Below are positions 32,047 to 62,765 of a DNA stretch of 64,000 nucleotides, piece after piece. Made by a program: the position numbers and the translations under genes. The notes below the pieces were generated by a model that was not told where the DNA came from, searched no databases, and saw nothing but the letters and a program-made list of their open reading frames with translations. Location: NCBI RefSeq assembly GCF_007097485.1, contig NZ_VKDE01000019.1:1-64000 (forward strand). Reading direction: 5' to 3'. Numbering within the stretch: the stretch's first letter is position 1; every line of letters begins with the position of its first letter. Source of the stretch: Carboxylicivirga sp. M1479. Lineage in GTDB: Bacteria > Bacteroidota > Bacteroidia > Bacteroidales > Marinilabiliaceae.

Positions 32047-32054
32047 CAAAGATA
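32047..32054 (-). promoter_or_regulatory. -7 promoter element for the M14 gene
   Basis: Perfect minus-strand TATCTTTG (TAnnTTTG), about 60 bp upstream of the ATG. Confidence 0.4.
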
Positions 32055-32197
32055 ATGCGATTTCCAATTTATCACATTAATATGGATATGTTTATAAACA
32101 GTACAGGCTAGCTCTGCAAGGTAGACTTCATTGTTATATCAGCTTATGCGTTTACTGATAAATCTTATCTTTATTGTCGTAATACAAAACCCATATC

Positions 32198-39433: not shown

Positions 39434-39475
39434 GCAAAAAAACAAAAGGCTGCTCAACAAAATTGAACAGCCTTT
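39434..39475 (-). terminator. Terminator of the S8-SusCD operon
   Basis: A 13-bp stem with one mismatch (AAAGGCTGTTCAA / TTGAGCAGCCTTT on the minus strand, 5-nt loop) followed by TTTTGTTTTTTT, 22 bp after the DUF4625 stop codon. Confidence 0.85.
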
Positions 39476-39496
39476 CCCATTTAAACTTATCCCTAT

Positions 39497-39934
39497 CTAT
39501 TCAATAATAACATTTACCTCCTGACGAGCTGGGTTTTTAGCTAAATCGTAAATATCAAACCTTAAGCGATAAATACCTGATTGAATCTGGTACGGGATAT
39601 CACCACCAAAAAGAACCAAGTTACTCACCTCTTGCAAAGTTTCCGACAATGGAATCACCATTTCTTCGGGTTCCCAAGGAGAGTCAATACCTTTTAAAGC
39701 AGCCCCCTCAATTGGTAACTCTTCAACAAACTCAATATTAACACGACACTCTTTTAGAGCCACATCATCTTCAAATATGGCATCCAGGCGTAAAACACCT
39801 CCACGAGCAAACTCTTGGTTATTGGTTGGTGAAAGAACTGTAACATGAGGTGGATTTTTATCACCTTCGTCTTTACTACAGCCCAAAACTATTACTAATA
39901 ATACCAGGCCTATTAAATATCTCATCTTTTTCAT
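39497..39934 (-). CDS. DUF4625 family lipoprotein (locus 2)
   Basis: A 145-residue lipoprotein (signal MKKMRYLIGLVLLVIVLGC, lipobox VLGC) with one DUF4625 Ig-like domain (PPHVTVLSPTNNQEFARGGVLRLDAIFEDD...LKECRVNIEF). Its ATG overlaps the stop codon of the preceding lipoprotein gene by one base (TAATG), so translation is coupled. It is the last gene of the S8-SusC-SusD operon. A paralogue at 851-1270 accompanies the other S8 gene, so the association with giant S8 proteases occurs twice in this window. Confidence 0.9.
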   Translation of the reverse strand: MKKMRYLIGLVLLVIVLGCSKDEGDKNPPHVTVLSPTNNQEFARGGVLRLDAIFEDDVALKECRVNIEFVEELPIEGAALKGIDSPWEPEEMVIPLSETLQEVSNLVLFGGDIPYQIQSGIYRLRFDIYDLAKNPARQEVNVIIE

Positions 39935-40812
39935 TATTCTTCTTTTTTAATTAATTCAGTAATTGAACATGCGTCAAAAGGCATATAGCCATTGTTGTAA
40001 TAAGCGAAAGCCCCCCACATAACTACTTCAATGCGTCCTTGCTCGTCATAGCTTGCTATTACATTTTCCTCAAGATGAATCTGCATATTCCCATCCTTCA
40101 TCGACCACTTATAAATTTTAATGGCACCAGCATCTGGATGAGCAGCAATTTCCTGAGGAGAAAACTCAATGGTTTTGTTTTCAAAATCAACCACCCCAAT
40201 AATAGTCCGTCCATACCCCCAATAGTTAAATACCTCTATTTGATTGTAAGTATTCTCGACTTGTTTGATTGTCATGTGACCATGTGTATCCCAATAGCCA
40301 CTTTCTTCGCCATTTATTATTCCGTAACGAATGCTGTGGTCTATCTGGTTATAAGTGCCAAACAAATAAGTATCTTCAAAAACTGGTGGCTCATCGGTCG
40401 TAAAGCTTTTGACCTCACTAAAGGAAAAACCATTCTCGGAATAGGTGTAGGCCTTATAGAAATACTCAGTACTACCAACTAACTGATTCACCCAATACGC
40501 AAGCACTAAATCATCATGCTCAACCATAATAGTATTGGTTAATGCTTCAGAAAAGTTTTTGTCGGTACTGACAAAAAAGCCACTTTCCAAAATATTCATA
40601 TCTCCATGTAAAGTTATATCGGCTCGCAACTGTGCTTTATCAAACGATATACCGTCAACATCAACATCAAACCCAGGCAATTGATCCTCCGATACTTTAT
40701 TATACTTATCTGCATCAATGCTCTCCTCACACGAACTAAGCCATAGTATAGCACTTAACTGTAGTACGGCACTTAGCAATAGTCTGAAGAATCTATTTAT
40801 TTCTGGTTTCAT
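39934..40812 (-). CDS. Surface lipoprotein in SusE/F position
   Basis: 292 residues when started at the ATG at 40812 (MKPEINRFFRLLLSAVLQLS), which gives a proper lipoprotein signal (lipobox LSSC). The longer frame starts with GTG inside susD and is not credible. Residues about 40-140 look like an Fn3-like module (NILESGFFVSTDKNFSEA...VGSTEYFYKAYTYSENG). The C-terminal half is a beta-rich domain I cannot name. It lies 25 bp after susD and overlaps the DUF4625 gene. By position it is a substrate-binding accessory lipoprotein of the SusCD complex. Confidence 0.8.
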   Translation of the reverse strand: MKPEINRFFRLLLSAVLQLSAILWLSSCEESIDADKYNKVSEDQLPGFDVDVDGISFDKAQLRADITLHGDMNILESGFFVSTDKNFSEALTNTIMVEHDDLVLAYWVNQLVGSTEYFYKAYTYSENGFSFSEVKSFTTDEPPVFEDTYLFGTYNQIDHSIRYGIINGEESGYWDTHGHMTIKQVENTYNQIEVFNYWGYGRTIIGVVDFENKTIEFSPQEIAAHPDAGAIKIYKWSMKDGNMQIHLEENVIASYDEQGRIEVVMWGAFAYYNNGYMPFDACSITELIKKEE

Positions 40813-40837
40813 AACTATTAATTTATGCTTAAAAATA

Positions 40838-42370
40838 TTAATCATTCTGTTCACTCTCATCAATGTGTACGTTATCCTGTATCTCACGTCGAGGAATCTG
40901 AAATACCCAATTATCAGCACCAGCCTTCACTTCAAACTGTCCGGGAATACTATGATTTGAGTTCGAATAAGCCCTGTTAATACCTTTATACAAACGCTTT
41001 AAATCAAAATAAGAGAACCCTTCGCCCCATAGCTCGATACGACGTTGATGGTATATGTATTCAACATCAACTTCAATCATATTCCAGCCTGGCTGTCGGT
41101 TCTCCATCAGAGAACGCATGGCATCTGCTGCCAAAGTCATCTCATTAATTTGTGCATAAGCTTCTGCTTCAATCAAAATCATTTCGGCAGCACGCATGTA
41201 TGGATAGTCCTGAGTCCAGTCATCTTTACGACCAAACTTTAGACTGGCATAAGGATTCTGAATACTAGGCGCTGTCTCAATATCCTTCTTAAACCGTTGA
41301 TAATCCTCGGGAGAAATGCCCTCCGGACCGTTAAACAATTGCTTACGCACATCCTCATCCGGAATACTTACGTACAAATCATAATCGATTAAGCGGGGAG
41401 ATAAGATACCTGCATAACCTGGACTATTATTAGATATATGCGAAAACCAAGAGATTAGCGTTGTTTGCGTTTCAATGGTATGGCGGTACCCCCAAATCCA
41501 TTCCGTGTTATTGGAATCCATAAAGCCACTTTTTAATTGCTCTAGACTCATCAGGTTGTAACTGGCATGTGCTTTATTCGCATGCTCAGCTGCTTTATTC
41601 CACTGCTGCGACAACAAATAAAAACGAGCCAACAAACCATGTATAACATCACTATTAATGGAACGTATATCCCCTAGCCTGTTATAGTTCTCTGATAATT
41701 GTAAGGCCATAGTCAAGTCGTGCTCAATTTGTTCAAAAACACGCTCAACAGTATTCCTGCCTTTTAAAGCTTCAGCCTCCAACTCATCAATACCATCAAT
41801 GGTTGAGAAGTACAATGGTACACCAGGCGCTTGCAAGTTAATGGCATCCTTTGTTGTTACTTCCTGATATAATTGAATCAGGTATAAATACGCCATTCCT
41901 CTAACTGCATAAGTCTCAGACAAGCAGCTATTATAGAAATCCTCATCGTAAGCAATAATGTATTCAGATAACTCATCGGCCATATCGAGTAAGCGATTAC
42001 CATTAGCAATAGCTGTGTAAAAGGTATTCCAGATATATGCCGTACGAACATTTGGAGCCAACCTGTAGCGATGCAAGTAATCCCACGAAAAATAGTGACT
42101 GGTAGGTTGTGAAATGTCCTGTGCCATCATATCGGTAGCATGCAAAGTCATTGCAAAGTTAAAGGAATCGTGGTCGCCCTGATAGCTTACCATAAATAGG
42201 TAAAGTCCATCAACAAGTGACTTTAATTTCTCAGGATATTCCCTTATAAGGCCCTTCAAATCATCGCCCCCAAGACCTGTTGTATAATCAGTATCTAAAT
42301 CGTTATTACATGCTGTTATTGAAATCAATAACAGTAGGGCACCAATTTTAATATTCTTCAAATATTTCAT
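40838..42370 (-). CDS. SusD/RagB-family nutrient-uptake lipoprotein (locus 2)
   Basis: A 510-residue lipoprotein (lipobox ITAC, Cys21). The SusD-like TPR scaffold shows in IWNTFYTAIANGNRLLDMADEL, YAVRGMAYLYLIQLYQEV and HGLLARFYLLSQQWNKAAEHAN. The C-terminal RagB/SusD domain ends with ELWGEGFSYFDLKRLYKGINR. It forms the lid on the SusC barrel and captures substrate at the cell surface. It starts 8 bp after susC. The operon context with an S8 protease suggests peptides, as for RagB, and not glycans (inference). Confidence 0.93.
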   Translation of the reverse strand: MKYLKNIKIGALLLLISITACNNDLDTDYTTGLGGDDLKGLIREYPEKLKSLVDGLYLFMVSYQGDHDSFNFAMTLHATDMMAQDISQPTSHYFSWDYLHRYRLAPNVRTAYIWNTFYTAIANGNRLLDMADELSEYIIAYDEDFYNSCLSETYAVRGMAYLYLIQLYQEVTTKDAINLQAPGVPLYFSTIDGIDELEAEALKGRNTVERVFEQIEHDLTMALQLSENYNRLGDIRSINSDVIHGLLARFYLLSQQWNKAAEHANKAHASYNLMSLEQLKSGFMDSNNTEWIWGYRHTIETQTTLISWFSHISNNSPGYAGILSPRLIDYDLYVSIPDEDVRKQLFNGPEGISPEDYQRFKKDIETAPSIQNPYASLKFGRKDDWTQDYPYMRAAEMILIEAEAYAQINEMTLAADAMRSLMENRQPGWNMIEVDVEYIYHQRRIELWGEGFSYFDLKRLYKGINRAYSNSNHSIPGQFEVKAGADNWVFQIPRREIQDNVHIDESEQND

Positions 42371-42378
42371 AGCAATAA

Positions 42379-45300
42379 TTATAATTGAAGTGATAATCCA
42401 AATGAAATAGTTCGTAATGCCGAATAGTTAAAGCCGACTGCTCCGTAAAGACTCTGACGTGGATCTAATCCTTTTCGAGCTGATTTTAACCAGAGGTTAT
42501 CACCTGTAAAATATATTCGGCAGCTTTGCATATTCAGGCGATTAAGCACTTTACCTGACAAAGTATAACCTACAGTGACGTTACGCAGACTAAAGTATGA
42601 GGCTGAAGTATAAAAACGGTCAGATGTCATATTTGCCTGATAGTTATGCTCGAGAATTGGCACGTCAGTATTGGTATTATTGGGCGTCCATCGTTTAAGC
42701 ATATCGCGGTGGTAATTAGAGCCAGCACGACTATTCATTAAGGATTGGTAGTTACTATCCATAACATATCCACCGATTTGGTACGCTGTTTGAAAAGACG
42801 CATCAAAGTTTTTAAACATTAATGATGATCCCAAACCACCTGTTAAATCCGGGATTGAACTTTTCCCTGTTTTTTGCATGGTAGCATCACCAATATCATC
42901 AACCTTGGTTATGGTTGCGTTTCCGTAATGGTCGTACTCATATCTATAATACAAAGCTCTGCCTGTTTCAACATCAACACCTGCATACTGAAAATCATAA
43001 AAATCGTAGATAGATCCACCCAGTTCACGCCAGAAAACGCCTTCGGCATAACCATTCTGATCTTTAGAACTTGGCAATTTAAGCAACTCATTCTTATAAT
43101 GAAGTGCATTCAAATTGATGCTCAATTTTAAATCTTGCTTTTTAAGAACATACACATTCATATCCAACTCCACACCTGTATTGCGCATATCCAAATGATT
43201 ACGCCACTGAAAGCTTGGTAACCCCTCTGAAAGCGGCAATTGATATTGGAACAATAAGTCTTTGGTGTCTTTAATAAAGAAGTCGAATGATAAATTAACA
43301 CGATCAATAAAGTATGACTCAATACCCACATTAAAATTGTTGCTCTTTTCCCATGTCAAATCCGCATTACCGCGCGCACTAAACACAACAGCCGCTTGCC
43401 CTCCAATGTCTCTAACGGTATACTGATCATCATAGCCATACCAGGTGCCTATGTTATCATTACCTTGGGTACCATAACTGGCACGCAGCTTAAGATTATT
43501 TACAAAAGAAATCCCTTTCATAAAATCCTCCTCAGAAATACGCCACGATGCACCGGCCGACCAGAAATTACCCCAACGGCTATCGGGATGAAAAACAGAT
43601 GAACCATCGCGACGGAAACTGGCTGACAAGTAATACTTATCAGATAAGTCGTACTCCAAGCGACTCAGGAATCCCTCTAATGCATATTCGCTATATCCCG
43701 ATGTAAGGCTTCGATAGGATGATGCATTAGCAAACTCAGGATTTGAAGGGTCAAAAAAGTTAGCCATATTACCCGAAAGGTTATTATTCTTATTTTGCTT
43801 TGTTTCATGACCAAGCAATGCTTTTATGGTATGAGCACCAAAGTTTTTCGAATAATTCAATAACTGATTAAAGTTGGTAGCAGTATAGCGTTGTGACGTT
43901 TTATAGCCCAAACCTCCCGCTGCAGCTGCGTCACCTCCCAAAGGTGTTAGAAAAGTAGACATGGTGTTAAAATACAAGTCATAAGCACCATTAACAGTTA
44001 ATGATAATCCGTCTATAATATTAAAATCAACAGCGCCACGCAGATTAAAATTGTCGGCCTTGTTATTATTAATATTGGCTTTTGTGGTAGCTACCGGATT
44101 GGCCATTGTACCAAATGGACGGCCTGTTTTCTCACCATAATCATAAATCGGGTTGCCATTGTGATCCAATAACTGCTCACCTGTATTAAGGTCGTACATA
44201 TAAACCGGATAGATGGGCGCAACCATTTGAGTAAACATAAATACATTACCTTGACTGGCTCCTCCTGCAGATACCGAGTTCTGCAACGTTCCGGTATAAG
44301 CCACATTAGCAGATAGCTTTAACCAATTACTAAAACGCTGGTCTATTTGTAATCTGGCATTTAAACGATCAAATTCGGAACCATCAACAATACCTTCATC
44401 GGATAAATATCCAAAAGAAGTGTAATAGGTTGATTGATCTGTTCCACCGCTAAAACTTAAGTTATACTCTTCGCGAATACCATTATTAAATGGCTCTGTT
44501 TCCCATTCGTTACCCCACTTCTTATCTGTGGCAGAAGCGTTAATCCGACCTGTAAAAGGGTCAACTAACTGATTGTCGGCAACACCATTGTACACGTTAT
44601 ACTTTAAGCTATTACTGATAAGATCATTAGATACAGCAATACCTGCTTGAGCATAACCCATGTGACCGAGGTAACTATTTCTTAAACCTTCCCAGCTTAG
44701 CTCATAGTACTCTGCAGGATCCCTCACAATATCATAGTTTGGAACCCCACGTGAATTAACTCCATAACGTGAATCGAAGTTGATACGAAAAGTACCAGCC
44801 TTTCCTTTTTTGGTTGTTATCAAAACTACTCCATTAGCACCGCGCGCTCCATACATTGAATTAGCGGCTGCATCTTTTAGTACCGAAAGGTTATCAATAT
44901 CCTGTGAAGAGATTGAATTGAGCGAACCTTCATAAGGGACACCATCTAATATAATGAGTGGTTCCTTAGAGGCCGAAATCGAACCTAAGCCGCGAACAAT
45001 AATTTGTCCACCAGCACCAGGTTGACCTGAACTCTGGGTAATTTGAACACCTGCCAAACTTCCTTCCAAAGACTTAGCCAAGTTAGCTGACTGCATTTTG
45101 GTCAAACTCTCGCCTTTTACCGTACTGGCAGCTCCTGTAAATGAACTTTTCTTGGTTGTTCCATATGCGACGGCAATCACCTCATCCAATCCAACAACAT
45201 CACTCTCAAGCATTACCACATAATGGTTGCGCTCATCGAGTGCTATGGTTTGCGTTTGCATACCAATAAAGCTGACTTGTATTGAAGTAAAGCTTTGTTC

Positions 45301-45495
45301 TATCGATAAACTAAAAGCTCCATCCATATCAGTAACAGTACCTATGGTAGTTCCAGGAACAACAATTGTTACCCCTGGCATTCCCATATCTGTTCCTTGC
45401 TCAATTACATTACCTGTAATTGTTCTGTTTTGGGCATAACAAACAGATATACTGTATATGGCATACACCCAAAATACTATTAATAGTTTCTTCAT
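42379..45495 (-). CDS. SusC/RagA-family TonB-dependent transporter (locus 2)
   Basis: A 1,038-residue outer-membrane transporter. Order: signal peptide (1-21), carboxypeptidase-like regulatory domain (RTITGNVIEQGTDMGMPGVT...), plug with the SusC signatures VIAVAYGTTKKSSFTGA and DAAANSMYGARGANGVVLITTKKG, and the 22-strand barrel ending in an aromatic/hydrophobic terminus (ISFGLSLQL). It has no STN domain, so it should not signal through a FecR/ECF pair; this fits control by the neighbouring TPR-HTH regulator instead. It lies between the S8 gene (54 bp upstream) and susD (8 bp downstream). Confidence 0.95.
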   Translation of the reverse strand: MKKLLIVFWVYAIYSISVCYAQNRTITGNVIEQGTDMGMPGVTIVVPGTTIGTVTDMDGAFSLSIEQSFTSIQVSFIGMQTQTIALDERNHYVVMLESDVVGLDEVIAVAYGTTKKSSFTGAASTVKGESLTKMQSANLAKSLEGSLAGVQITQSSGQPGAGGQIIVRGLGSISASKEPLIILDGVPYEGSLNSISSQDIDNLSVLKDAAANSMYGARGANGVVLITTKKGKAGTFRINFDSRYGVNSRGVPNYDIVRDPAEYYELSWEGLRNSYLGHMGYAQAGIAVSNDLISNSLKYNVYNGVADNQLVDPFTGRINASATDKKWGNEWETEPFNNGIREEYNLSFSGGTDQSTYYTSFGYLSDEGIVDGSEFDRLNARLQIDQRFSNWLKLSANVAYTGTLQNSVSAGGASQGNVFMFTQMVAPIYPVYMYDLNTGEQLLDHNGNPIYDYGEKTGRPFGTMANPVATTKANINNNKADNFNLRGAVDFNIIDGLSLTVNGAYDLYFNTMSTFLTPLGGDAAAAGGLGYKTSQRYTATNFNQLLNYSKNFGAHTIKALLGHETKQNKNNNLSGNMANFFDPSNPEFANASSYRSLTSGYSEYALEGFLSRLEYDLSDKYYLSASFRRDGSSVFHPDSRWGNFWSAGASWRISEEDFMKGISFVNNLKLRASYGTQGNDNIGTWYGYDDQYTVRDIGGQAAVVFSARGNADLTWEKSNNFNVGIESYFIDRVNLSFDFFIKDTKDLLFQYQLPLSEGLPSFQWRNHLDMRNTGVELDMNVYVLKKQDLKLSINLNALHYKNELLKLPSSKDQNGYAEGVFWRELGGSIYDFYDFQYAGVDVETGRALYYRYEYDHYGNATITKVDDIGDATMQKTGKSSIPDLTGGLGSSLMFKNFDASFQTAYQIGGYVMDSNYQSLMNSRAGSNYHRDMLKRWTPNNTNTDVPILEHNYQANMTSDRFYTSASYFSLRNVTVGYTLSGKVLNRLNMQSCRIYFTGDNLWLKSARKGLDPRQSLYGAVGFNYSALRTISFGLSLQL

Positions 45496-45512
45496 TTAAC
45501 CGTAGATTAATC

Positions 45513-45544
45513 ATATGCACCCCTTACGGGATGCATATTTTTTT
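45513..45544 (+). terminator. Terminator-like hairpin opposite the S8-susC junction
   Basis: A stem ATATGCA(C)CCC / GGG(A)TGCATAT with a 4-nt loop, followed by seven T residues on the plus strand, 18 bp upstream of the minus-strand susC start. On the minus strand no U-run follows. So it either ends a plus-strand RNA or acts as an mRNA-stability hairpin between protease and susC cistrons. Confidence 0.5.
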
Positions 45545-45549
45545 GGTCA

Positions 45550-48500
45550 CTATAGTTTTGTAAACTTGTTAGTTAGAGAAATCTCATTGGATGATAATTC
45601 CAGCATATACATGCCTTTAGTTAAAGTAGTCACCTCAATTACTGCAGAAAGATTTCCTGCACTGATAATGCCGTTTTTCACAACTTCTCCTGTTACAGAT
45701 AAGATTCGGTAGTTGACATCCCCTGCAAGAAGCATGTTCGATGATACATTCAACACATCACGAACTGGATTCGGGAAAATACTCACCTTAGGTCCATCAA
45801 CATCATCAATACCAACACGAACGACCACATTAATTACTGCTTCAGAAACTAATTGCGCGCCATGCGGATCTTCCGTGATTATTGTTAATGTAGTACGACC
45901 TAGCTCTAATGGTTTAACAATTAATTCATTATTACTGTAAAACAGTTCAATCTTATCATTGTCTTTAGTAACCGTATAAGTCAATTCCTCACCATCTGGA
46001 TCTGTAATGTACTCGGTTAAATCAAGGTTATACTTAAGGTGCTTGTCAAGCTCATAAGTAAAATCTAATTCCTGAACCTCAACTGGTGCCCTGTTAACAT
46101 TATTAATTCGAACTATGAAAGTATAATTGTTAACTAATCCTTTTGAGTCTTCACCCTTAACGACAACACGGTACAATCCTGCACTGTAATGATCAGGAAC
46201 AAATTGCAAGTTCATGTTCTGACCATCAAACTCACTGTTTACAAAGGCATAATCTTGAGCCATTGTTAAGGTATAATCTAAACCTCCCAAGTGAGATGCA
46301 TATAATACGAAATCTAGTGTATCATTCTCATTTATCTCAATCACAAAGTTTTGATCTATTCCATAACTTGGACCATTATTCTTGATCAACTCGGCGGCAA
46401 TTCTCGATTGCTTATTATTCGGATCGTTAGAATTAACATAGATCTTAGCCTTATTAACAGTGTTAAACACACGTGATCCAAACATTTCAAAATCGATGTT
46501 CATTGATTCACCGGGAGCAATTATTCCTTCGTAAACCGATGGCATTAACCATTGTGGGTTAATCTTCTCTGTTTCGACGGCTTTTATCATCCAACCAATT
46601 TCAGGCACGCCTAATTCACTCACTTCACGGTACACAATACCCTTTGAACCAAACAAGTTACCCTCCTCATTTTTGGCTTCAATTTGACCAAGTGCAGCCG
46701 GTGAAATCATTTCAGCAGCATATATTATACGGATGTAAAATGTTTCACCACCTTGTATCAACACAGGCTTTTCTAAGTCAACTAATTCTTTAACAACCTG
46801 ATTCCCATACAATGGTGCATCGTAGCTATAATTTACACGTTGACTATAGATTAATCCAGTTTTCAGAAATTCATCATCGCCAGCAAATACCTGGACAGTA
46901 TAATAACTTTCAAGTGTATTGCGGTATGTAAAGTAATGCTCTAATTGGTTAAAACAGAATCCATCTTCGGGTGCAACCAAACGTGTAACGGTATGTACTT
47001 CTGCATCTGGTGTACCCCAACCAAAAGTATGTAGCACTTCATCTGAAAGCAATTGTGTTAATATACGGCTGTCGTCAGCTACTTTTAAACGTTTTGACTT
47101 AAGCTTTCCAGCATCCTGAAGTTCTGCCTCATTCCGTATTGGGCCACCATATGTTACTAAATCTTCCGATGCATAAGTATCAGACAAAGCCATGTAGATA
47201 TACTCATAGCTAATATCCAATGAGAATCGTAACTCATACTTGCCGTCAGTATTGTTAATGTTAAGTGTTTCATTACCAACAAAAGTATCATCTGCAGCAT
47301 AAGCCGTTATTTCATTCTTATCAAAACCTATTGATGGTACATCCACTTGGTTGGCTTTAAATGAAATATTAATTTTATACTCATCAGCAACATCACTCAG
47401 TTGCAAAGCATTCAACTCAATACGCGACATACCTTCTACAGCTGCATAATCAATAAGCACAATATCGCCTACTAGTTCCTTAACTTCATTTGGTTTTTTC
47501 TTGATATATACCCTTGCTGGCAACTCACCCTCGGCAGGAATTAACAGCGGAATTTGTTCCGGATTAAACCAGTCGGCAGTGTAGGATGGTAATTGACCAA
47601 CATCTGTAAAGCCCTCAATCATAATAGCACCAAAAGGATTAGTCTTAGAATATAGGTCTACTCCTAATTCCCCTTGAAGTCCATCGCTAAATATCTTACC
47701 AATTCTAAAGTTTTTGCGTCCATTATTAATTAATGCAAAATCTAGCACCCAACTTTCATCTTCAGTAGAATTTGCTGTTACCCAACCTTCTTCTTCTACA
47801 ACAAAGATTTCACCCATGTTGTACTCTTCATCAATAACTAAGTCATCATTTCCATCTACATTCAGGTTAAATGGCACTTCGAGTATTCCGTTGGCAACTG
47901 TATTATTTAATATGGTTACAGTTTCGGTATACTCGCCAGCATAAATTTCTGCTGCATCTACAATAAAATTGTGTGTTGCGCTTTCGCCAGGCTCGAGTGT
48001 TTTCTTCTCAAAAGGATAAAACTCAATAGCAGTATCATCATTTATATAGCTCGAGTTGTATGAAATTGTAATACCCTCAGTACCGTTTTCATTCTCAATA
48101 CCAATAGCTGATACGCTTGGATTCATCGAAAACAGGTGCCCATTGAAATTATACTGAAACTTAAAAGAACCGTCTTTTCGTAATATTACTTGCCATGAGA
48201 TTGGCCCGGTTGACATTCCAAATCCATCAGTAAATGACTGATACTGTACAATCACCTCTTCTTCAAATGCCTGATAATATACTCCGGCATTTTTATCGTT
48301 GTATAAATCGTTATACACGAAGCCAAACATCGGAGCAATTATATTATTCGGACCATCTTCAGAAGGTACTTGAATGCCGCCTCTTTCAAAACTTTCCTCA
48401 TGTTCCGAGAAAGAAAGAACACCACAGTAACCAACATTCATTGTACTATATTCATTGCCATAATAGTTAAATGTCCATGGCAGTTCAACCGTATTCCAGA

Positions 48501-51500
48501 AATCCTCATGTGTTTTAAGATCCATCGCCTTTAGCTTGGTTCCACTGATTGAGATATCAATCCATTCATACTTAACAATTGGATTATGCTTTTGCTGAAA
48601 AGCTTGATACTGGTAATCTTTAAGCGAAGAACCTGATTTTAAGCCCAATTCATCTACATGTACAATAGCTGTACCTTTAATACCATACTCCAAAGTGCTT
48701 TGACCTGTATTTGAAACAGTTAATGCTGCTGTGGCTTTTTCTCCAGACATTACATTAACATCAACACTTGTTTTATCTGTTGAAATAAGCGGTGCTTCAA
48801 TAATGATACTATGTAACGGAATAGTTACATTTTCTGAATCATTAAAGGTTATTTGAACTTCAGCGTTATACTCACCTACTTGGTCGGAAATGCCCTCTAC
48901 AACAAATGTTTCGATCATTTCGGCCTTCAGCTCATATGGGAAAGTGCGTTCTGTCAGTAATGTAAATTGATCAGCATTAGTTCCAGTGATTACAATGTTT
49001 GTGATTTCACCTGGTGCTCTTCCATCATTTCTGATCAATAAGTTTTGACTCAACTCAGCTAAATGATAATTTTCACCAAAATCAAAAGCTTCTGCATCAG
49101 TACTTAATTTGGATTCGCCTCCCTCAGTCACATTAATTTCAGCTCTGAAATTAAAGAATGGTTGTTTTGGCTCGTTAGTCAATACTGGCAGATATTCAGA
49201 GTAAGTATCTTCATTCAGAATATCTGTTGCCATTGTATAATCAATGGTTACCGATTCGCCTTGCAATAATACACCAGTCGCGTTATTAACAGACTTAAAT
49301 AAGCCTAAACCAGGATTAATGAATTTGATATTAGTTCCTTGGTTGATATCTATTTGCCTTTCACCAAAGTAGTTGCCAATTATTGCATCATTTTGCTCCA
49401 AATCATGAGCCCAAACCGACCACCATTTGGTATTTGTGAAGCCATCCAACTCTTTATAACGAACTTCCATATTTCCGTTCTTATGCAATACTAATTGAAA
49501 GCTCAATTCGTGCTGAACTAATTTCAATTCAACTTCATCCAGACTACCCATAGGTATATCCTGAAATTGCACAACAAAGTGATCTCCAAAATCTTGGTAA
49601 AGAACTTTACTATCTATATTAGGATCAAATCGAATAGGTTCTCCCAAAACGCAAAACGCACGTGTAGGGCTTGAACTATCTAGCGGTGCCATTGGATAAC
49701 GATTGAAAGTACCATCTTTAGTAAAAGCCAAAACGCCGAATGGTGATATAAAAACTTTGCGTTCTATTTTCCCGAAGAATGGGAAGCCAAAGTTTAATTC
49801 TACTTCGTGAACTTTACGATTATTACCATCATTATTTATCAAACCAGGAATTAATGTTCCGGTTGTAGAGATGTCTTCCCAAGGTCCCCAAGACTTTTCT
49901 TCACTAAAATAACCAAACTTACTTATGTTGGTATCTTCATTATCAAATCCATCAGGCTTATCGCTAAACTTTGGTATGTAGTAGTGTAAAGGATAATCTC
50001 CACTATTGTCAATTGTAAACGAACCGTTCAATTCATCTCCAATAGCAATAGCATCAAATATTGTATCCGCAGGTGTAACATTACCAACTGGTGGATTAAT
50101 GGCATAACCTGTTACTTTAATAGTGTATTCTTCGGTACCACTACTATTATAAAAACGAATGTAGTTATTAAATGGCCCTTGCGTACTTGGCTTGAATCCA
50201 ATATTGAAAAACACTGAAGATAGTGCTTCAATAATTTTAGGTGACTTATATGAACTAGAACTTCCATTAAAAAGTATCTCACGGCTATTACCTTCTCGTT
50301 CACTTCTATTAAGTATAAAATCGCCTAATCCCGTATTGGTCATATACGCTTCAATATGCTTCTCTTTACCAATCATTACTCTACCAAAGTCTATTAAAGT
50401 AGTACCTGTTATGATTGGTTCGTGTCCTTCAATCGTTGCTTTTAAACGATAACTCAACAGCTCGTTATTAGCGTCATTTGTTGATGTATTTACATCAAAA
50501 TTATAGGTTCCGTTTATGATGTTGCTTGCATCTATATCATAGGACACAACTTCCTGCTCATCGGCATAAATGTTTCCATCATCTTTTTGTAGAGTTATAA
50601 ATGAGTTGCCTTGTGAGAAAAAACTAATTGCCTCCACCATATAAGCAAAACCATCAATGTACACATCAGCCAACGACTTCCACGACTGTCCATAATCTGA
50701 GCTGTAGAAACAATTTTCACGGCCCCAGCCGTTACCATCTTCAAAAGCAATACCTAATGGATACTTATGTCCGGTTGGTGGATGAATCACCACCCAAAAA
50801 TAAGTTCCTTCTTCGAAAAACAGTTGTGTTGTTAAGGCATGCTTTGTTGTTTGCTGAAGCGTGTTCGTTTGTAAGGCCTGTCGATGACGTAATTTGGCAG
50901 ATTGAATGTCACGCCCTTCAAATATCTCTGCAATAATTTCCTCATCATCTGATAGTTCAACATTTAATCTGGCAGCAATATGCGTTAAGTTAAAACCGTT
51001 GCCAGCTCCTCCATTATCCCCTGTTTGAACACGATATCGAGTAGCGGATGAACTTGGATCCTCAGGCGAAGCTTCTCCTATGTAATAATACGACGAAGCT
51101 TTAAGGTATCCTTTAAACAAGGAAGTATCAGCTACTTGATTATACTCAACTACAGTTTGAAAAGGCGATGCATCATAAACTTCTGTATTGGTACTTTGTG
51201 GAGAAACAGATCTACCATTTAAACTGAGCAATGGAGCTGTCCAGTTTGCTTCAGTAGTAAAATCGATGTTTGTAACCCACTTAAGAATACCTTCACCGGT
51301 ATTAAACAGTTTAAATTGACCATTGGCTACTGAGCTAGTTTTAACATCGATTAAATGTTCAACAGTATGCTTATCAACATCAGTATAATCAACCTCTAAT
51401 ACCGCCTCGGGTCCGGCAGTTGTTTGTTTTTGAACTACGTTTGACAATAAAGATTTATTGCCCCATTTATCCACCGAAACGATACCCACATAATAGTTTG

Positions 51501-53286
51501 TTAGCGCTTGCAAGTTGGTTAGTTCAACTGTTGTTAGGGCTCCAACTTCAGATTGCTTAACGTCCATCTTCTGATGAGCAGTCATACCCAAATTGCTATC
51601 ACTAAACGATGAAGAAGAATAGTAAACCTCATAATGATTTGGCGCTCTTCCGTAACCTGTTGCAGGCACTGTGAACGCCATTTCAAACATATCTTGACTA
51701 GTTAAGTTAATAGCCAAATCAGCTATTTTGTTCGGTCCATTACTGGTCTTTTCGTCGAGTGCGTAAAGAGCATTAATTCGACCAGTACCTAATTTATCGA
51801 AATGCTTATGATCCTCGGGAAATTCCCCATAAACATTATCTACCGAACCTTCTAAAATGGAAAAAAGCTCGTCATTTGTAAGGTTTTTATCCTTTAAGTA
51901 AGACACAACCAAGGCAGCCACACCAGTAACATGTGGTGTAGCCATACTTGTACCTTCAAGCCAACCATAACCACCATTGGAAACTGTACTAAAAATTCCA
52001 TGGTGCATAGGATGCTCCTTTTCCTCTTGGGTCAATAATTCATCATTATCCATGTCACCTCCCGGCGCAGAAATGTTAATCCAGTTACCATAATTGGAAT
52101 AACCTGCCTTTTGGTTTTTATAATGAATGGCAGCAACAGTAAATACTTCCGGCATGTATCCAGGATATAGCTCATCATCCATATTAGCATTACCAGAAGC
52201 AAAAATAACCATACCTCCTTTTAATGGACTTCCTTCATAAGCTCCTGCTTCTTCGATAAAATAACGAATACCTGCCTCTACAGACTCCTCTCTATTTCCT
52301 GGTGTGGGATAGCCCCAACTATTTTGAGAAATAACAGCACCATTATCGGCCGCATATACGAATGAAGCCCCAATACCTCCTTGGTTGTTGCCATCAAAAA
52401 TCTGACAGCTCATTATACGTACGCCATCGTCATTACCAGAGCCACCGGCAATACCTGCACCTCCAATACCATTGTTATTAACAGCACTAATGGTTCCGGC
52501 AACGTGTGTTCCATGATTTCCAGCGCTTATATACCCCGTATTGGAAGCAAAATTGTAACCGTACTTATCTCCAACATAGCCGTTAAAGTCATCATCCTTA
52601 TTATCACTACCATTTATTTCCGATTCATTTCTCCACATGTTAGCTTCTAAATCAGGGTGATTAAACTGCACACCCAAATCATGAACCGAAACAATAACAG
52701 AGGCATCTCCGGCATTTGTTTCCCACGCTTCAAAAAGGTTAATATGTGCAAGGTCAAATCGCTCTAATAAACCGGTTGGCGCATAATGGTAATATTGCTC
52801 GGTATATTCGTCGTTAAACTTATAGTTTGAATTGGTAGATTTTAGCGACTTTTTACTCGGGTCAAAGGGCACATATTTATGCGAATGAAGGCTCTTCTCT
52901 CTAATTTTCTCTGCTTTTTCCACCACTGACAACTCACCAAATACCTTAACGACGTTATCTAAATCGTCACCTGATGAATAATCAATTTCATACCATAAAT
53001 GCAATCCATGTTTACGATGCTTAGCATCATACTGGTCATTATAGGGAAATACCCTTTTCATTTTAGTAGCACGAAAATGCGTTAAAGCATTATCCATTTC
53101 AATGATACCCACCTTAGGGTTATCAGTAGAAGCTGACTTTAGCATGGCCAGCTCAATTTCGGGCTTAATCTTTACCCGAAAAGTTCCTTGCAAATGACCT
53201 TCTTTATATATCTGCTGCGCATTTGTAGCAACAACTGACATAATAAAGAACAGTCCCAACAAAAAGAGATTTTGGTTCTTGTTCAT
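45550..53286 (-). CDS. Giant T9SS-exported subtilisin-family (S8) serine protease, locus 2
   Basis: 2,578 residues, starting at the ATG at 53286 (the frame opens with TTG two codons earlier). Paralogue of the 1526-9223 protein along its whole length. It has a signal peptide (MNKNQNLFLLGLFFIMSVVA...), a propeptide with KRVFPYNDQYDAKHRKHGLHLWY and an S8 domain with intact Asp203 (VHDLG), His258 (HGTHVAG), oxyanion Asn366 (FASGNAN) and Ser447 (EGTSMATPHVTG). Fn3-like, ASH-like and two FPF/YYG-type modules follow, then cadherin-like modules. The C-terminus is a T9SS type A sorting domain (SIFPNPVRDVLNVSS ... LTNKFTKL). It is the first gene of the SusCD operon and should sit on the cell surface cutting the polymer whose fragments SusCD imports. 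Confidence 0.94.
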   Translation of the reverse strand: MNKNQNLFLLGLFFIMSVVATNAQQIYKEGHLQGTFRVKIKPEIELAMLKSASTDNPKVGIIEMDNALTHFRATKMKRVFPYNDQYDAKHRKHGLHLWYEIDYSSGDDLDNVVKVFGELSVVEKAEKIREKSLHSHKYVPFDPSKKSLKSTNSNYKFNDEYTEQYYHYAPTGLLERFDLAHINLFEAWETNAGDASVIVSVHDLGVQFNHPDLEANMWRNESEINGSDNKDDDFNGYVGDKYGYNFASNTGYISAGNHGTHVAGTISAVNNNGIGGAGIAGGSGNDDGVRIMSCQIFDGNNQGGIGASFVYAADNGAVISQNSWGYPTPGNREESVEAGIRYFIEEAGAYEGSPLKGGMVIFASGNANMDDELYPGYMPEVFTVAAIHYKNQKAGYSNYGNWINISAPGGDMDNDELLTQEEKEHPMHHGIFSTVSNGGYGWLEGTSMATPHVTGVAALVVSYLKDKNLTNDELFSILEGSVDNVYGEFPEDHKHFDKLGTGRINALYALDEKTSNGPNKIADLAINLTSQDMFEMAFTVPATGYGRAPNHYEVYYSSSSFSDSNLGMTAHQKMDVKQSEVGALTTVELTNLQALTNYYVGIVSVDKWGNKSLLSNVVQKQTTAGPEAVLEVDYTDVDKHTVEHLIDVKTSSVANGQFKLFNTGEGILKWVTNIDFTTEANWTAPLLSLNGRSVSPQSTNTEVYDASPFQTVVEYNQVADTSLFKGYLKASSYYYIGEASPEDPSSSATRYRVQTGDNGGAGNGFNLTHIAARLNVELSDDEEIIAEIFEGRDIQSAKLRHRQALQTNTLQQTTKHALTTQLFFEEGTYFWVVIHPPTGHKYPLGIAFEDGNGWGRENCFYSSDYGQSWKSLADVYIDGFAYMVEAISFFSQGNSFITLQKDDGNIYADEQEVVSYDIDASNIINGTYNFDVNTSTNDANNELLSYRLKATIEGHEPIITGTTLIDFGRVMIGKEKHIEAYMTNTGLGDFILNRSEREGNSREILFNGSSSSYKSPKIIEALSSVFFNIGFKPSTQGPFNNYIRFYNSSGTEEYTIKVTGYAINPPVGNVTPADTIFDAIAIGDELNGSFTIDNSGDYPLHYYIPKFSDKPDGFDNEDTNISKFGYFSEEKSWGPWEDISTTGTLIPGLINNDGNNRKVHEVELNFGFPFFGKIERKVFISPFGVLAFTKDGTFNRYPMAPLDSSSPTRAFCVLGEPIRFDPNIDSKVLYQDFGDHFVVQFQDIPMGSLDEVELKLVQHELSFQLVLHKNGNMEVRYKELDGFTNTKWWSVWAHDLEQNDAIIGNYFGERQIDINQGTNIKFINPGLGLFKSVNNATGVLLQGESVTIDYTMATDILNEDTYSEYLPVLTNEPKQPFFNFRAEINVTEGGESKLSTDAEAFDFGENYHLAELSQNLLIRNDGRAPGEITNIVITGTNADQFTLLTERTFPYELKAEMIETFVVEGISDQVGEYNAEVQITFNDSENVTIPLHSIIIEAPLISTDKTSVDVNVMSGEKATAALTVSNTGQSTLEYGIKGTAIVHVDELGLKSGSSLKDYQYQAFQQKHNPIVKYEWIDISISGTKLKAMDLKTHEDFWNTVELPWTFNYYGNEYSTMNVGYCGVLSFSEHEESFERGGIQVPSEDGPNNIIAPMFGFVYNDLYNDKNAGVYYQAFEEEVIVQYQSFTDGFGMSTGPISWQVILRKDGSFKFQYNFNGHLFSMNPSVSAIGIENENGTEGITISYNSSYINDDTAIEFYPFEKKTLEPGESATHNFIVDAAEIYAGEYTETVTILNNTVANGILEVPFNLNVDGNDDLVIDEEYNMGEIFVVEEEGWVTANSTEDESWVLDFALINNGRKNFRIGKIFSDGLQGELGVDLYSKTNPFGAIMIEGFTDVGQLPSYTADWFNPEQIPLLIPAEGELPARVYIKKKPNEVKELVGDIVLIDYAAVEGMSRIELNALQLSDVADEYKINISFKANQVDVPSIGFDKNEITAYAADDTFVGNETLNINNTDGKYELRFSLDISYEYIYMALSDTYASEDLVTYGGPIRNEAELQDAGKLKSKRLKVADDSRILTQLLSDEVLHTFGWGTPDAEVHTVTRLVAPEDGFCFNQLEHYFTYRNTLESYYTVQVFAGDDEFLKTGLIYSQRVNYSYDAPLYGNQVVKELVDLEKPVLIQGGETFYIRIIYAAEMISPAALGQIEAKNEEGNLFGSKGIVYREVSELGVPEIGWMIKAVETEKINPQWLMPSVYEGIIAPGESMNIDFEMFGSRVFNTVNKAKIYVNSNDPNNKQSRIAAELIKNNGPSYGIDQNFVIEINENDTLDFVLYASHLGGLDYTLTMAQDYAFVNSEFDGQNMNLQFVPDHYSAGLYRVVVKGEDSKGLVNNYTFIVRINNVNRAPVEVQELDFTYELDKHLKYNLDLTEYITDPDGEELTYTVTKDNDKIELFYSNNELIVKPLELGRTTLTIITEDPHGAQLVSEAVINVVVRVGIDDVDGPKVSIFPNPVRDVLNVSSNMLLAGDVNYRILSVTGEVVKNGIISAGNLSAVIEVTTLTKGMYMLELSSNEISLTNKFTKL

Positions 53287-53478: not shown

Positions 53479-53486
53479 CAAACCTA
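53479..53486 (-). promoter_or_regulatory. -7 promoter element for the S8-SusCD operon
   Basis: Perfect minus-strand TAGGTTTG (TAnnTTTG), about 190 bp upstream of the S8 ATG. A matching -33 element is not clear, which would fit an activator-dependent promoter. Confidence 0.4.
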
Positions 53487-53634: not shown

Positions 53635-53675
53635 GAATATGATTCTCTTTGGATAGCAATAATACAAGTTGTAAC

Positions 53676-55307
53676 ATGACACTTAAATCAATTGGAAAAC
53701 TACCAGGTCTTTTATGCTTACTTTTATTTGTCTCTGTTAATTCATATGCTGATAGTTTATTAAAAGAAGACAGTTTAATGATTCAATTAAACCGAACGAA
53801 AGAAAAAAAAGAACGCTACAGCATTTTAATGGCACTTATCAAACATACCAGAACATACGATTATAAAAAATCAATCTTATACTCCACCCAAGGGGAACTT
53901 TTAGCATCCAATAGAGATGATAAACAATGGTTAGCCAAGTTTTTATTTGAAGGAGGTGTAACCAATTACTACCTCACGTCATACGACACCTCATTAGATA
54001 AGTACTTAAAAGCAACCAAATACTTCGAAACAAATAACGATTTTATTAGCTTAACAAAGTGTTATAACAACACAGGCATGATCTATGACCGAATTGAAAA
54101 ATATGAAAAGGCAGTTCAGTATTACCAATTAGCAATCGCAAGTTTTAATCGTTTAGATGATAAGACAAGGGAAGAATACATCAGGTTTTTACCACAGCAT
54201 TATAATAACATTGCCAGTGCTTACAACAAATTAAAACAAACAAACAAGGCACAAGCATATTACAAAAAAGCTTTAGAAGTAGCTCTAAATATTGATTTTA
54301 GATATATACTGGGAGCTATTTACAATAACCTGGGAATAGTTGACATGGAAAAAGAACTGTATCCTTCAGCTAAGCAATATTTTGACCAATCAATTTTAAT
54401 TCGACAAGAAGACAATGAAACCATTGGCCTTGCCCAATCATATAATATCTTATCCCAATATTACATGAATATTGCAGATTATGATAGTTGTATCTGGGCA
54501 TCTAAAAAATCGTTAGAAATTTCGTCGACAAATAACCTTCTAGAACTACAAAAGTCATCGCATTATAGGTTAATAACAGCTTATGAGAAAAAAGGCATGT
54601 TAGCTGAAGCTCTGCAAGAACAAAAGAATTATAGCATAATAAACGATAGCATTGGAAATAGTCATAAGATGAACCGCCTAACGCAGCTTGAAATAGCACA
54701 AGAGGTTGAGAAAATTGAAAAGGCTAATAAGGTCAAACTAACAAAGTTAAAATACCAATATGCCATCCTGTTACTAATTCTATTCTCATTGGCTATAATC
54801 TCAATATTGACTGCTCGATTGTATAAAATACAAAAGAAAAAGCTTAACCTAGAGTACTCTAAACTTAAACTTAGTGTTGATACAAAAAATAGAGAGCTTA
54901 CAACTAACGTTATGCAATTAATTCAGAAAAATGAGTTAATTAACAATGTTGTTAAAGAACTTCTAACACTAAAGAATGATATTAATAATAAATCACAACA
55001 AACACTTCATAAGATCATACTTAACCTGCAGTCACAAACAAATAAAGAAATTTGGCAAGAATTTGAATTTCGCTTTAATAATGTGCACACCGATTTTTAT
55101 TCACGATTAATGCATGAGCATCCATCTATTACCGCCTCAGAAAAAAGGCTTTGTGCGCTTTTGCGCCTAAATATGACATCTAAAGAAATTGCCGCCATAA
55201 CCCATCAAACATTAAGAGGAGTTGAAGTAGCCAGAAGTCGATTAAGAAAACGATTATGCTTAACCAGAAAAGATACCAGCTTAAACAGCTATTTGGAAAA
55301 CTTTTAA
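53676..55307 (+). CDS. TPR-membrane-HTH transcriptional regulator (locus 2)
   Basis: 543 residues from the ATG at 53676 (MTLKSIGKLPGLLCLLLFVS, a good signal peptide); the frame opens nine codons earlier with TTG. About six TPR units (for example YNNTGMIYDRIEKYEKAVQYYQLA, YNNIASAYNKLKQTNKAQAYY and YNNLGIVDMEKELYPSAKQYF) precede one membrane helix (about 362-383). A coiled coil and a C-terminal HTH follow (ASEKRLCALLRLNMTSKEIAAITHQTLRGVEVARSRLRKRL). It has the same length and layout as the locus 1 regulator. Periplasmic TPRs would sense peptides or envelope state while the HTH binds DNA. It is divergent from the S8-SusCD operon, its likely target. Confidence 0.9.
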   Translation: MTLKSIGKLPGLLCLLLFVSVNSYADSLLKEDSLMIQLNRTKEKKERYSILMALIKHTRTYDYKKSILYSTQGELLASNRDDKQWLAKFLFEGGVTNYYLTSYDTSLDKYLKATKYFETNNDFISLTKCYNNTGMIYDRIEKYEKAVQYYQLAIASFNRLDDKTREEYIRFLPQHYNNIASAYNKLKQTNKAQAYYKKALEVALNIDFRYILGAIYNNLGIVDMEKELYPSAKQYFDQSILIRQEDNETIGLAQSYNILSQYYMNIADYDSCIWASKKSLEISSTNNLLELQKSSHYRLITAYEKKGMLAEALQEQKNYSIINDSIGNSHKMNRLTQLEIAQEVEKIEKANKVKLTKLKYQYAILLLILFSLAIISILTARLYKIQKKKLNLEYSKLKLSVDTKNRELTTNVMQLIQKNELINNVVKELLTLKNDINNKSQQTLHKIILNLQSQTNKEIWQEFEFRFNNVHTDFYSRLMHEHPSITASEKRLCALLRLNMTSKEIAAITHQTLRGVEVARSRLRKRLCLTRKDTSLNSYLENF

Positions 55308-55382: not shown

Positions 55383-57668
55383 TTATTGAATAACAAATTG
55401 TGTTTGCTGAAGTTCAACAGAGTTACCACCTACAAATAGATTAAACTGTCCGGCCTCTACTACATATTTTCCACATGGGTAAAAATACCCCAACTCTTTT
55501 TTGGATAAAGCGAATGTTACCACTTTGGTTTCACCTGCCTTAATCAATACCTTTTCAAAACCTTTCAGCTCTTTTACAGGGCGTGTGTAGGTAGCTGCCA
55601 TGTCCTGAATATACAACTGCACCACTTCTTCTCCGTCAAGCTGACCTGTATTGCTCACCTTTATGCTTGCGGTTAAGGTTCCATTTTCATCCATTACTGT
55701 CTTATCCAAAACAATATCTGAATACTCGAAACTGGTATAACTTAAACCAAAGCCGAACGGAAACAAGGGTGTATTGGGTGCATCGGTAAAGCACGACCAC
55801 AATACTTGCCCTGGCGCTTCGGCTTGCGGACGGCCTGTGTTTTTGTAGTTATAATAAATTGGGCATTGCCCAACTGTACGCGGAAATGACATTGGCAGCT
55901 TACCCGACGGGTTATAATGTCCCATCAGCACATCGGCAATGGCATATCCTGCTTCAGAACCTGCATGCCAGGCCTCTAGTATGGCTGGCGCTTTATCAAC
56001 CAGCTCAGGAATAGCCAGTGGGCGACCATTCATGAGTACCACCACTATGTTTTTATTCACCTTATAAATGGCATTGAACAGTTCCATTTGCAAGCCCTTT
56101 AAACCAATATCTGTTTGGCTGCGACCCTCACCACTCTGAAAACAATCCTCACCAATAGCTAAAAGTACCAGCTCTGATTTCTTGGCCGCTTGAATGGCCT
56201 TGGCAAAACCAGAACGATCGCTTTCGTTATAGGTCATTTTATCAGGGAAAGTGCGCTTTCCAATCGATAGCTTACAACCCTCGGCATAGTTGATTGTTAC
56301 GCTTTTGCCCACGGCAGCTTGTATACCTTCCAATAAGGAAACGGCTGAATCATATTCTCCCTGAGCTCGCCAGTTACCTATTGGCGAATCCTTATCGTTG
56401 GCCAAAGGTCCAATAACAGCAATGCTCTTCACCGATGATGCAATAGGAAGCAGTTGCTTCTCATTTTTCAACAACACCATCGATTCTCGTGCTACTTTAC
56501 GTGCTGCATCGCGATGCTCAGCTGTGTATAACATGGATTTTTCATTCTCCACATTGCAATATTTATAAGGATCATCAAATAAGCCCAAACGGTATTTGAT
56601 GCGTAATATTCGCCGCGCAGCATCGGTAATTTTCGCTTCATCCACTTTACCCTCTGCTACCAATTCTTCAAGATGATTAATGTAAGCGCGAGCTTCCATA
56701 TCCATATCGGAACCACCTTCAATGGCACGATACGCCGATTCTTTGAGGTCGGCCGCAGCACCATGAGGAATCATCTCACCAATACTGTTCCAGTCAGACA
56801 CCACAAAACCTTCAAAAGCCCATTGCTTTTTTAACAAATCGCGCTGTAAATAGCTACTGGCTGTTGCAGGCATGCCCTGTATGGTGTTAAAGGCATTCAT
56901 AAAGGTAGCAACACCAGCATCGGATGCAGCCTTAAAAGGAGGCAACACAATATTTTGCAAGGTCTCATCTCCAATCTCTACTGAGTTATAATCACGTCCA
57001 CTCTCGGAAAAGGCATAAGCTGCAAAGTGCTTGGCACAGGCCGCAATGCTTAATTCATCACTCAGGTCATCGCCCTGAAAACCTTCAACTCGGGCACGAG
57101 CAAAGACACTGCCTAAATAAGGATCCTCGCCAGCACCTTCCATCACTCGTCCCCAACGTGCATCTCGTCCAACGTCCACCATGGGCGAAAAGGTCCAGTG
57201 AATACCAGATGCTGCAGCTTCTTTAGCTGCGATTTTTGACGATAAATAGGCCAATTCAGGATTCCACGAAGCTGCTTCGGCTAAAGGAATTGGAAACATG
57301 GTTTTATAACCATGAATCACATCGTAACCAAAAATTAAAGGAATACCCAAGCGTGTGTTTTCAACTACGGTCTGTTGGGCTTTGCGCGTGGCTTCAGCTC
57401 CATTTACGTTCAGCATGGAACCGACCATCCCACTCTTTAACTGCTCCAATTGTGACTGCGCACCTTCATCGCCTTTGGGTGCAGGCCCTGTCATTTCCCA
57501 ACGGCTGGTATATTGGTTCAGCTGCCCCACTTTCTCAGCCAAGGTCATTTGGCTCAGTAAATCTTCAATAAACCTATCCTCTTCGTTCATTGGCTTCTGT
57601 TGATTTGTGCATGCCGATAATATAAGGATTATTAGCATTATAAAAATACCAATCTTTCTCATTGTCAT
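55383..57668 (-). CDS. GH3 beta-glucosidase (BglX type), lipoprotein
   Basis: A 761-residue glycoside hydrolase family 3 enzyme with a lipoprotein signal (lipobox LSAC, Cys20), so periplasmic. It has the GH3 N-domain, catalytic nucleophile Asp292 in GFVVSDWNS, the (alpha/beta)6 sandwich with the likely acid/base Glu514 (SGEGRSQTDI) and a C-terminal Fn3-like domain. KHF (about 213-215) and GRDARWGRVMEGAGEDPYL are family hallmarks. It is the last gene of the FecR-SusC-SusD locus and would release glucose (or xylose) from imported beta-linked oligosaccharides. An ATG at 57662 is an equally possible start. Confidence 0.95.
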   Translation of the reverse strand: MTMRKIGIFIMLIILILSACTNQQKPMNEEDRFIEDLLSQMTLAEKVGQLNQYTSRWEMTGPAPKGDEGAQSQLEQLKSGMVGSMLNVNGAEATRKAQQTVVENTRLGIPLIFGYDVIHGYKTMFPIPLAEAASWNPELAYLSSKIAAKEAAASGIHWTFSPMVDVGRDARWGRVMEGAGEDPYLGSVFARARVEGFQGDDLSDELSIAACAKHFAAYAFSESGRDYNSVEIGDETLQNIVLPPFKAASDAGVATFMNAFNTIQGMPATASSYLQRDLLKKQWAFEGFVVSDWNSIGEMIPHGAAADLKESAYRAIEGGSDMDMEARAYINHLEELVAEGKVDEAKITDAARRILRIKYRLGLFDDPYKYCNVENEKSMLYTAEHRDAARKVARESMVLLKNEKQLLPIASSVKSIAVIGPLANDKDSPIGNWRAQGEYDSAVSLLEGIQAAVGKSVTINYAEGCKLSIGKRTFPDKMTYNESDRSGFAKAIQAAKKSELVLLAIGEDCFQSGEGRSQTDIGLKGLQMELFNAIYKVNKNIVVVLMNGRPLAIPELVDKAPAILEAWHAGSEAGYAIADVLMGHYNPSGKLPMSFPRTVGQCPIYYNYKNTGRPQAEAPGQVLWSCFTDAPNTPLFPFGFGLSYTSFEYSDIVLDKTVMDENGTLTASIKVSNTGQLDGEEVVQLYIQDMAATYTRPVKELKGFEKVLIKAGETKVVTFALSKKELGYFYPCGKYVVEAGQFNLFVGGNSVELQQTQFVIQ

Positions 57669-57723
57669 ATTGTTTGCGTTAGACTTCAGTGCTCCTAAAC
57701 ATATTTCATTCAGGTTTAAGCAA

Positions 57724-57751
57724 CAAAGGCTGCCGATGGAGGCAGCCTTTG
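57724..57751 (-). terminator. Hairpin between susD and the GH3 gene
   Basis: A perfect 11-bp stem (CAAAGGCTGCC / GGCAGCCTTTG, 6-nt loop) after the susD stop. The U-run on the minus side is weak, so it may act as a partial terminator or stabiliser that lowers GH3 expression relative to SusCD. Confidence 0.6.
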
Positions 57752-57776
57752 TAATTAACGAAAATTAGTGTAATTA

Positions 57777-59333: not shown

Positions 59334-59350
59334 TTTTCTTTGTTTTGGGA

Positions 59351-62677: not shown

Positions 62678-62690
62678 AAATTTGAAATGT

Positions 62691-62750: not shown

Positions 62751-62765
62751 ATTATTCTCTCATTA

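Follow-up and report, generated by a model that had tools for sequence, protein, structure and literature searches.

Pairs of a SusC outer-membrane channel and a SusD lipoprotein lid (SusCD) are usually assigned to glycans. The question raised by a five-gene operon of Carboxylicivirga sp. M1479 (assembly GCF_007097485.1; 5.44 Mb in 130 contigs) is what such a pair would serve when the enzyme encoded with it is a giant S8 (subtilase) protease. The operon occupies positions 39497-53286 on the minus strand of the window, i.e., the whole stretch of 64,000 nucleotides of contig NZ_VKDE01000019.1 that was analyzed. An original prediction described it as a locus for capturing, cutting, and importing one protein or a class of proteins. 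The operon is quite probably a protein-utilization locus: capture, cutting, and import remained the best-supported reading and the gene order was conserved, although the pairing of protease and importer proved not to be exceptional and the DUF4625 lipoprotein was found to track the protease. With six giant S8 genes in the genome, the substrate may be one protein or a class of proteins. In the best reading, this operon belongs among several paralogous kits of an expanded family, in which the protease and DUF4625 covary and a few SusC lineages are reused.

Structure and Conservation of the Operon

Open reading frames (ORFs) and domain searches returned the composition, order, and strand that had been claimed. 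The operon encodes a giant S8 protease of 2,578 amino acids (aa; 45550-53286), a SusC/RagA-type TonB-dependent outer-membrane channel with plug and barrel (1,038 aa; 42379-45495), a SusD/RagB-family lipoprotein (510 aa; 40838-42370), a lipoprotein in the SusE position (292 aa; 39934-40812, with the ATG at 40812), and a DUF4625 lipoprotein (145 aa; 39497-39934), all on the minus strand. The gaps calculated from these coordinates were as reported earlier, with 54 bp between the S8 and SusC genes, 8 bp between SusC and SusD, and 25 bp from SusD to the ATG of the fourth gene, which shares the single base 39934 with the DUF4625 gene. The SusC scored 776.6 bits against TIGR04056 (cut-off 368), while the SusD exceeded the cut-offs of both PF07980 (SusD_RagB) and PF14322 (SusD-like_3) with 48 and 47 bits. 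As had been stated, none of the products was assigned to a glycosidase, lyase, or sulfatase family in the Pfam domain search, and the operon does not qualify as a polysaccharide utilization locus (PUL) defined by a carbohydrate-active enzyme (CAZyme), lyase, or sulfatase within it.

The giant protease includes a signal peptide (read by eye), a Peptidase_S8_N prodomain, a Peptidase_S8 domain whose match of 118.5 bits places it in the S8 family, HYDIN-type Ig/choice-of-anchor D modules, and a Por_Secre_tail. The catalytic triad, described as intact, was recovered as Asp203, His261, and Ser447, which together with the oxyanion Asn366 were invariant in a four-row alignment. Among 74 fetched S8 sequences, which include fragments and for which conservation was judged where a letter exists, the D, H, N, and S were kept wherever the residue was present (72, 73, 73, and 73 sequences, respectively). 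The C-terminal sorting domain of the type IX secretion system (T9SS) was likewise confirmed, with 42 bits for Por_Secre_tail and a TIGR04183 match over the cut-off. The T9SS component SprA (SprA_N) is encoded in the same genome, and the protease is by these two features a predicted T9SS cargo. A few of the giant S8 proteins terminate in KLIKK.

The predicted terminator was found as a hairpin of 15 pairs with a T run at 39444-39476 on the minus strand. The site alone is weak, since 10 terminator-like sites were found in the scan and 8.6 were expected, while its position at the operon end adds weight. A Bacteroidota-type promoter scan identified one site 5' of the S8 gene, TAGGTTTG (53479-53486, minus strand), a possible -7 element under a motif that we take to be the Bacteroidota one; the site is weak, as 46 8-mers of this type occur on the same strand of the window. 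The same scan found no -7-type element within the gap between the S8 and SusC genes, and a general promoter scan found 52 sites where 54.0 were expected.

A divergent gene on the plus strand (53649-55307), absent from the list of the original prediction, encodes a TPR protein. A transmembrane segment and a LuxR-like helix-turn-helix end were both read by eye in it, neither being a Pfam match. The protein is a probable regulator that would switch the operon on.

The gene order proved to be conserved among relatives, so that its lack of conservation, one of the outcomes that the original prediction had named as refuting it, did not occur. The five-gene order was present in four of 13 congeners (genomes G001, G002, G009, and G011), each time accompanied by the divergent TPR gene, and the S8 protein of the operon was present in Carboxylicivirga sediminis, C. 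mesophila, and C. linearis. In Saccharicrinis aurantiacus, the order TPR-S8-SusC-SusD was present as far as the fetched stretch reached. Downstream of the operon, G009 and G011 were alike, and G001 and G002 each differed. The conserved unit is hence the TPR gene plus the five genes, because the order recurs with the TPR gene while the downstream flanks differ. The S8 frame of the G002 ortholog is split (L016:1960-9675), and the other four frames are whole. Chance adjacency of the genes was rejected in view of this conservation of order and by the recurrent pairing across the genus.

Giant S8 Loci in the Genus Carboxylicivirga

A total of 65 S8_N-type matches were found in 14 genomes of the genus, and the surroundings of each were fetched. 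With a giant defined as a single frame of at least 2,400 aa, the genus genomes contained 51 giant S8 genes; genes that were shorter, split, or cut by a contig end did not enter this count. SusC or SusD was encoded within five same-strand genes of 38 giants (38 of the 45 not cut by contig ends); of the others, six were cut by contig ends and seven were unlinked, including one where SusC is the sixth gene. Two of the S8 proteins, of 3,079 and 3,078 aa (L179:3240 and L182:6208), had no SusCD, TPR, or DUF4625 neighbors.

Two layouts were observed. In the first (27 loci), the protease precedes SusCD, the TPR gene adjoins the protease in 23 loci, and a DUF4625 gene lies within five genes downstream in 26. 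In the second (11 loci, two of them second in tandem), SusCD is followed by a protein of approximately 475-502 aa and then by the protease; neither TPR nor DUF4625 accompanied any of the 11. The 43 neighboring same-strand proteins included no glycosidase, lyase, other CAZyme, or sulfatase among the 25 families, out of 33, that were listed. Fib_succ_major matched nine of the 43; two that were identified singly are the second-layout proteins of about 500 aa on contig C38, where two tandem giant S8 genes stand behind one SusCD with a Fib_succ_major protein before each (L124:897-17655).

The host genome includes 43 SusC proteins over the TIGR04056 cut-off, by which about 8% of its positions lie, arithmetically, within 5 kb of a SusC. 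Four of its six giant S8 genes lie within that distance; of the remaining two, one is in tandem behind a linked giant and the other (1526-9223) is cut off by a contig end.

Distances among S8 proteins correlated with those among SusC proteins (r = 0.79 for 31 pairs; 0.77 for 14 representatives) and with those among TPR proteins (r = 0.85 over 31; 0.56 in 13 representatives), values to be read as indications because related sequences are not independent. The S8-SusC correlation was reached by none of 2,000 free shuffles and none of 5,000 within-genome shuffles, and may largely stem from the division into SusC groups.

Protease-Linked SusCD in the Bacteroidales

Across the Bacteroidales, S8 loci were sampled from GTDB genomes through two peptide patterns, which makes the sample biased. 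SusC or SusD was found somewhere in the fetched stretch of 43 of 60 loci, and the S8 gene shared one same-strand run with both SusC and SusD in 37 of 59 readable loci (33 of 55 when four giants are removed). The original prediction had treated the pairing as exceptional, a view that these frequencies do not sustain. The operons are alike in combining an S8_N-type protease with SusC and SusD on one strand, but the non-giant proteases of the sample are smaller (534-1,141 aa) and lie downstream of SusCD where linked, while the four giant loci have the protease upstream. The S8-SusCD pairing itself is not unique, and what is new is the expanded variant.

Relationships of the SusC and SusD Proteins

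A SusC phylogeny was constructed with FastTree, rooted at the midpoint, from the 43 SusC of the host genome and the SusC of S8 loci. By eye, the S8-linked SusC occupy three regions, i.e., that of the operon, that of the second layout, and a large group, which suggests that the pairing arose repeatedly or that partners were exchanged. A strict listing gave seven linked-only clades, since two SusC of the host genome, for which the fetched stretch showed no giant S8, nest within the large group. One is a gene on contig C63 and the other a gene on contig C54 accompanied by DUF4625 and, further along, by an S8 of 1,291 aa. The large group is the region nearest to RagA, as judged from two tested members: the SusC of sister loci L214 and L221 had RagA as the closest solved structure, with 515 bits against 431 and 417 against 342 for the best other SusC. 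In contrast, two unlinked control SusC scored 231 and 279 with RagA and 558 and 508 with 8aa4.

Several observations weigh against the protein-utilization reading. The SusC of the operon itself scored 361 bits with 8aa4 and 333 with RagA, which was thus not its closest solved relative, and a second-layout SusC scored 440 with 5t3r and 400 with RagA. A third, unlinked control (L025), the closest relative of the operon's SusC within its own genome, scored 391, 382, and, with RagA, 364, and was also equidistant. Both 5t3r and 8aa4 are presumably glycan importers, although the structure table itself gives only "SusC homolog". BT_2264, which we take to be the SusC found loaded with peptides, was distant from every SusC compared, and it scored lower with four S8-locus SusC (106, 115, 126, and 120) than with the three controls (129, 154, and 178). 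No entry named RagB appeared below E 0.01 in the SusD match list, and the two best matches carry carbohydrate-binding names. RagA and RagB are accordingly not favored as the nearest relatives of the operon's own SusCD. A locus of GH3, SusD, SusC, and FecR genes lies beyond the divergent TPR gene (55383-63788), and C. sediminis and C. mesophila likewise have a GH3 (76-77% identity), SusD, and SusC next to the operon. Finally, SusCD accompanied giant-type S8 genes in none of seven loci from other families of the order, two of which run off contigs, and an S8 of 2,668 aa (L137) was likewise without SusCD.

The GH3 locus and the scores of the operon's own SusC and SusD would fit a glycoprotein or proteoglycan locus, where the protease strips the protein and SusCD imports the glycan or a glycopeptide, possibly together with the GH3-SusCD neighbor. 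A sulfatase upstream of the locus on contig C38 points the same way, and in its accessible text Kappelmann et al. (PMC6298971) suggest a glycoprotein substrate for a PUL with peptidases. Nevertheless, the GH3 locus is a separate operon with a different regulator (FecR as opposed to TPR), no GH3 relative appeared in the flanks fetched for C. linearis or S. aurantiacus, the neighboring proteins of the giants yielded no CAZyme in the families covered, and the largest S8-linked SusC group was RagA-like in the two members tested. Such a role is considered unlikely.

The loci from other families bear on a further explanation, in which the protease acts in attack, adhesion, or processing of the surfaces of other cells and SusCD is a scavenging neighbor. 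Giant-type S8 genes were accompanied by a TPR gene in four of those seven loci, seven of the 51 giants in the genus are unlinked, and the proteins carry Ig-like modules. However, the linkage of 38 of the 45 judgeable giants, in both gene orders and with SusC from three tree regions, and the correlated S8 and SusC distances make this very improbable. The presence of TPR in four and of SusCD in none of the seven loci suggests that regulator and protease may have been paired first, with SusCD recruited later. A protein-utilization locus remained the preferred reading of the operon.

The DUF4625 and SusE-Position Lipoproteins

The last gene of the operon matched PF15418 (DUF4625) with 30.2 bits (gathering cut-off 27). 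Its presence in the operon, as predicted, was confirmed. Within the genus, its variation follows the protease and not SusC. Across the 21 loci with all three genes, the partial correlation of DUF4625 was 0.74 with S8 and 0.19 with SusC (raw 0.68); for nine representatives, the values were 0.70 and -0.14 (raw 0.41). As related sequences are not independent, these values too are indications. Additionally, five of seven tandem loci of the first layout have a separate DUF4625 for each giant (the exceptions being G001 C96 and G005 C8), and genome G012 includes S8-DUF4625 pairs with no SusCD nearby.

Other genera gave a different picture. DUF4625 adjoined a TonB-dependent receptor of 716-829 aa in 17 of 20 fetched loci (10 receptors confirmed by Pfam and seven by a weak SusC-model match), and S8 stood beside it in none of the 20, which favors a link to the importer. 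The host genome also has two DUF4625 genes whose SusCD loci include no giant S8. Against the co-variation, the tandem loci, and the G012 pairs, the chance that DUF4625 simply accompanies the importer as an ordinary accessory lipoprotein, with no protease as partner, is put a little short of even. A partnership with the protease is considered more likely than a fixed place in the importer, and a docking or inhibitor role is a fair hypothesis. In a further locus (L262:5270-14363), SusC and SusD are followed by a lectin/sortilin-like protein and DUF4625, with no S8 within the fetched stretch.

The SusE-position protein has an FnIII-like N-terminal half and a C-terminal half for which no relatives were found. 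It matched no Pfam family at E 0.001 and no curated family over its cut-off, and an identity as SusE or SusF was dropped for want of a Pfam match. Among the fetched loci, its full-length family was confined to this operon and the four orthologous operons. Of 295 genomes of the order, at least 121, including that of the window, had some match, with no full-length relative outside the genus among the matches listed. The predicted structures were poor, with a mean predicted local distance difference test score of 35.8 for this protein and 54.9 for DUF4625.

Second Locus and Other Genes of the Window

The window includes a second giant-S8 locus (3-11709, minus strand), which the original prediction did not list. 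It encodes a protease of the same family (2,565 aa; 1526-9223), a DUF4625 lipoprotein (851-1270), a TPR protein (10078-11709), and the start of a further gene cut by the contig end (3-725), whose product shares 93% identity over 234 aa with a portion of an ORF lying ahead of SusC-SusD where contig C63 ends. The locus is therefore probably linked to SusCD and probably continues on C63. Elsewhere in the window, Tricorn-like S41, M14, and M28 peptidases and a serine dehydratase are encoded at 15662-20395 and 30856-33841, which is counted in favor of the protein-utilization reading.

Discussion

In the mechanism proposed here, the giant S8 protease would leave the cell through the type IX system, stay anchored on its surface, and cut proteins there. 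The adjoining SusCD would import the released peptides with TonB energy, by analogy with RagAB, and the SusE-position lipoprotein would probably aid capture. DUF4625 would more likely dock or inhibit the protease than serve as a fixed part of the importer, and the TPR protein would probably turn the operon on.

The operon resembles a Sus-type PUL in its SusC-SusD-lipoprotein order, TonB-dependent importer, and adjoining regulator. It differs in having no CAZyme, in its T9SS-type protease as the enzyme, and in a TPR regulator that sets it apart from the usual PUL regulators. We know of no protease in the ragAB operon. With RagAB of Porphyromonas gingivalis the locus shares a SusCD pair, and the SusC of two sister loci have RagA as their best solved relative, although the SusC of this operon does not. 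RagAB takes up protease-made peptides, according to the available text of PMC11817032. Peptidases alongside SusCD have been noted in print, as far as the accessible texts go (PMC7768429, PMC9723704). For example, the available account of Flavobacterium psychrophilum describes a collagenase-SusCD-Dcp2 group in which SusCD is co-expressed with a secreted protease and oligopeptide uptake is proposed; there the collagenase belongs to a co-expression cluster, and the accessible text mentions no giant S8 (PMC9723704). Similarly, the genes of the KLIKK proteases of Tannerella forsythia adjoin small inhibitor-lipoprotein (potempin) genes that covary with them, according to the text available (PMC7296668). 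The likeness consists of a secreted protease gene with an adjoining, covarying small lipoprotein gene, and of the KLIKK ends of some giants, but the potempin precedes its protease and SusCD is not mentioned in that text (PMC7296668). DUF4625 is likened to potempins by gene pairing and co-variation. The literature searched, as far as its accessible texts go and with most subscription journals outside it, gave no account of these loci, no use of "protein/peptide utilization locus/loci", and no work joining Carboxylicivirga, peptidase, and TonB-dependent.

A more specific reading is put forward tentatively, as rather doubtful. The loci of Carboxylicivirga may form a class dedicated to protein utilization and made of exchangeable cassettes, each combining a regulator with a giant surface subtilase and its cognate DUF4625 as guard or dock, set on a few reusable SusCD of RagA-like or other type. 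If true, these would be the protein counterpart of a multi-PUL glycan repertoire. The co-variation of protease and DUF4625 provides a hypothesis that can be tested for a domain family of unknown function. The dozens of protease-SusCD operons in this genus also form a natural test set in which peptide and glycan importers might be distinguished by sequence, and the same set would inform the understanding of protein uptake by marine Bacteroidota.

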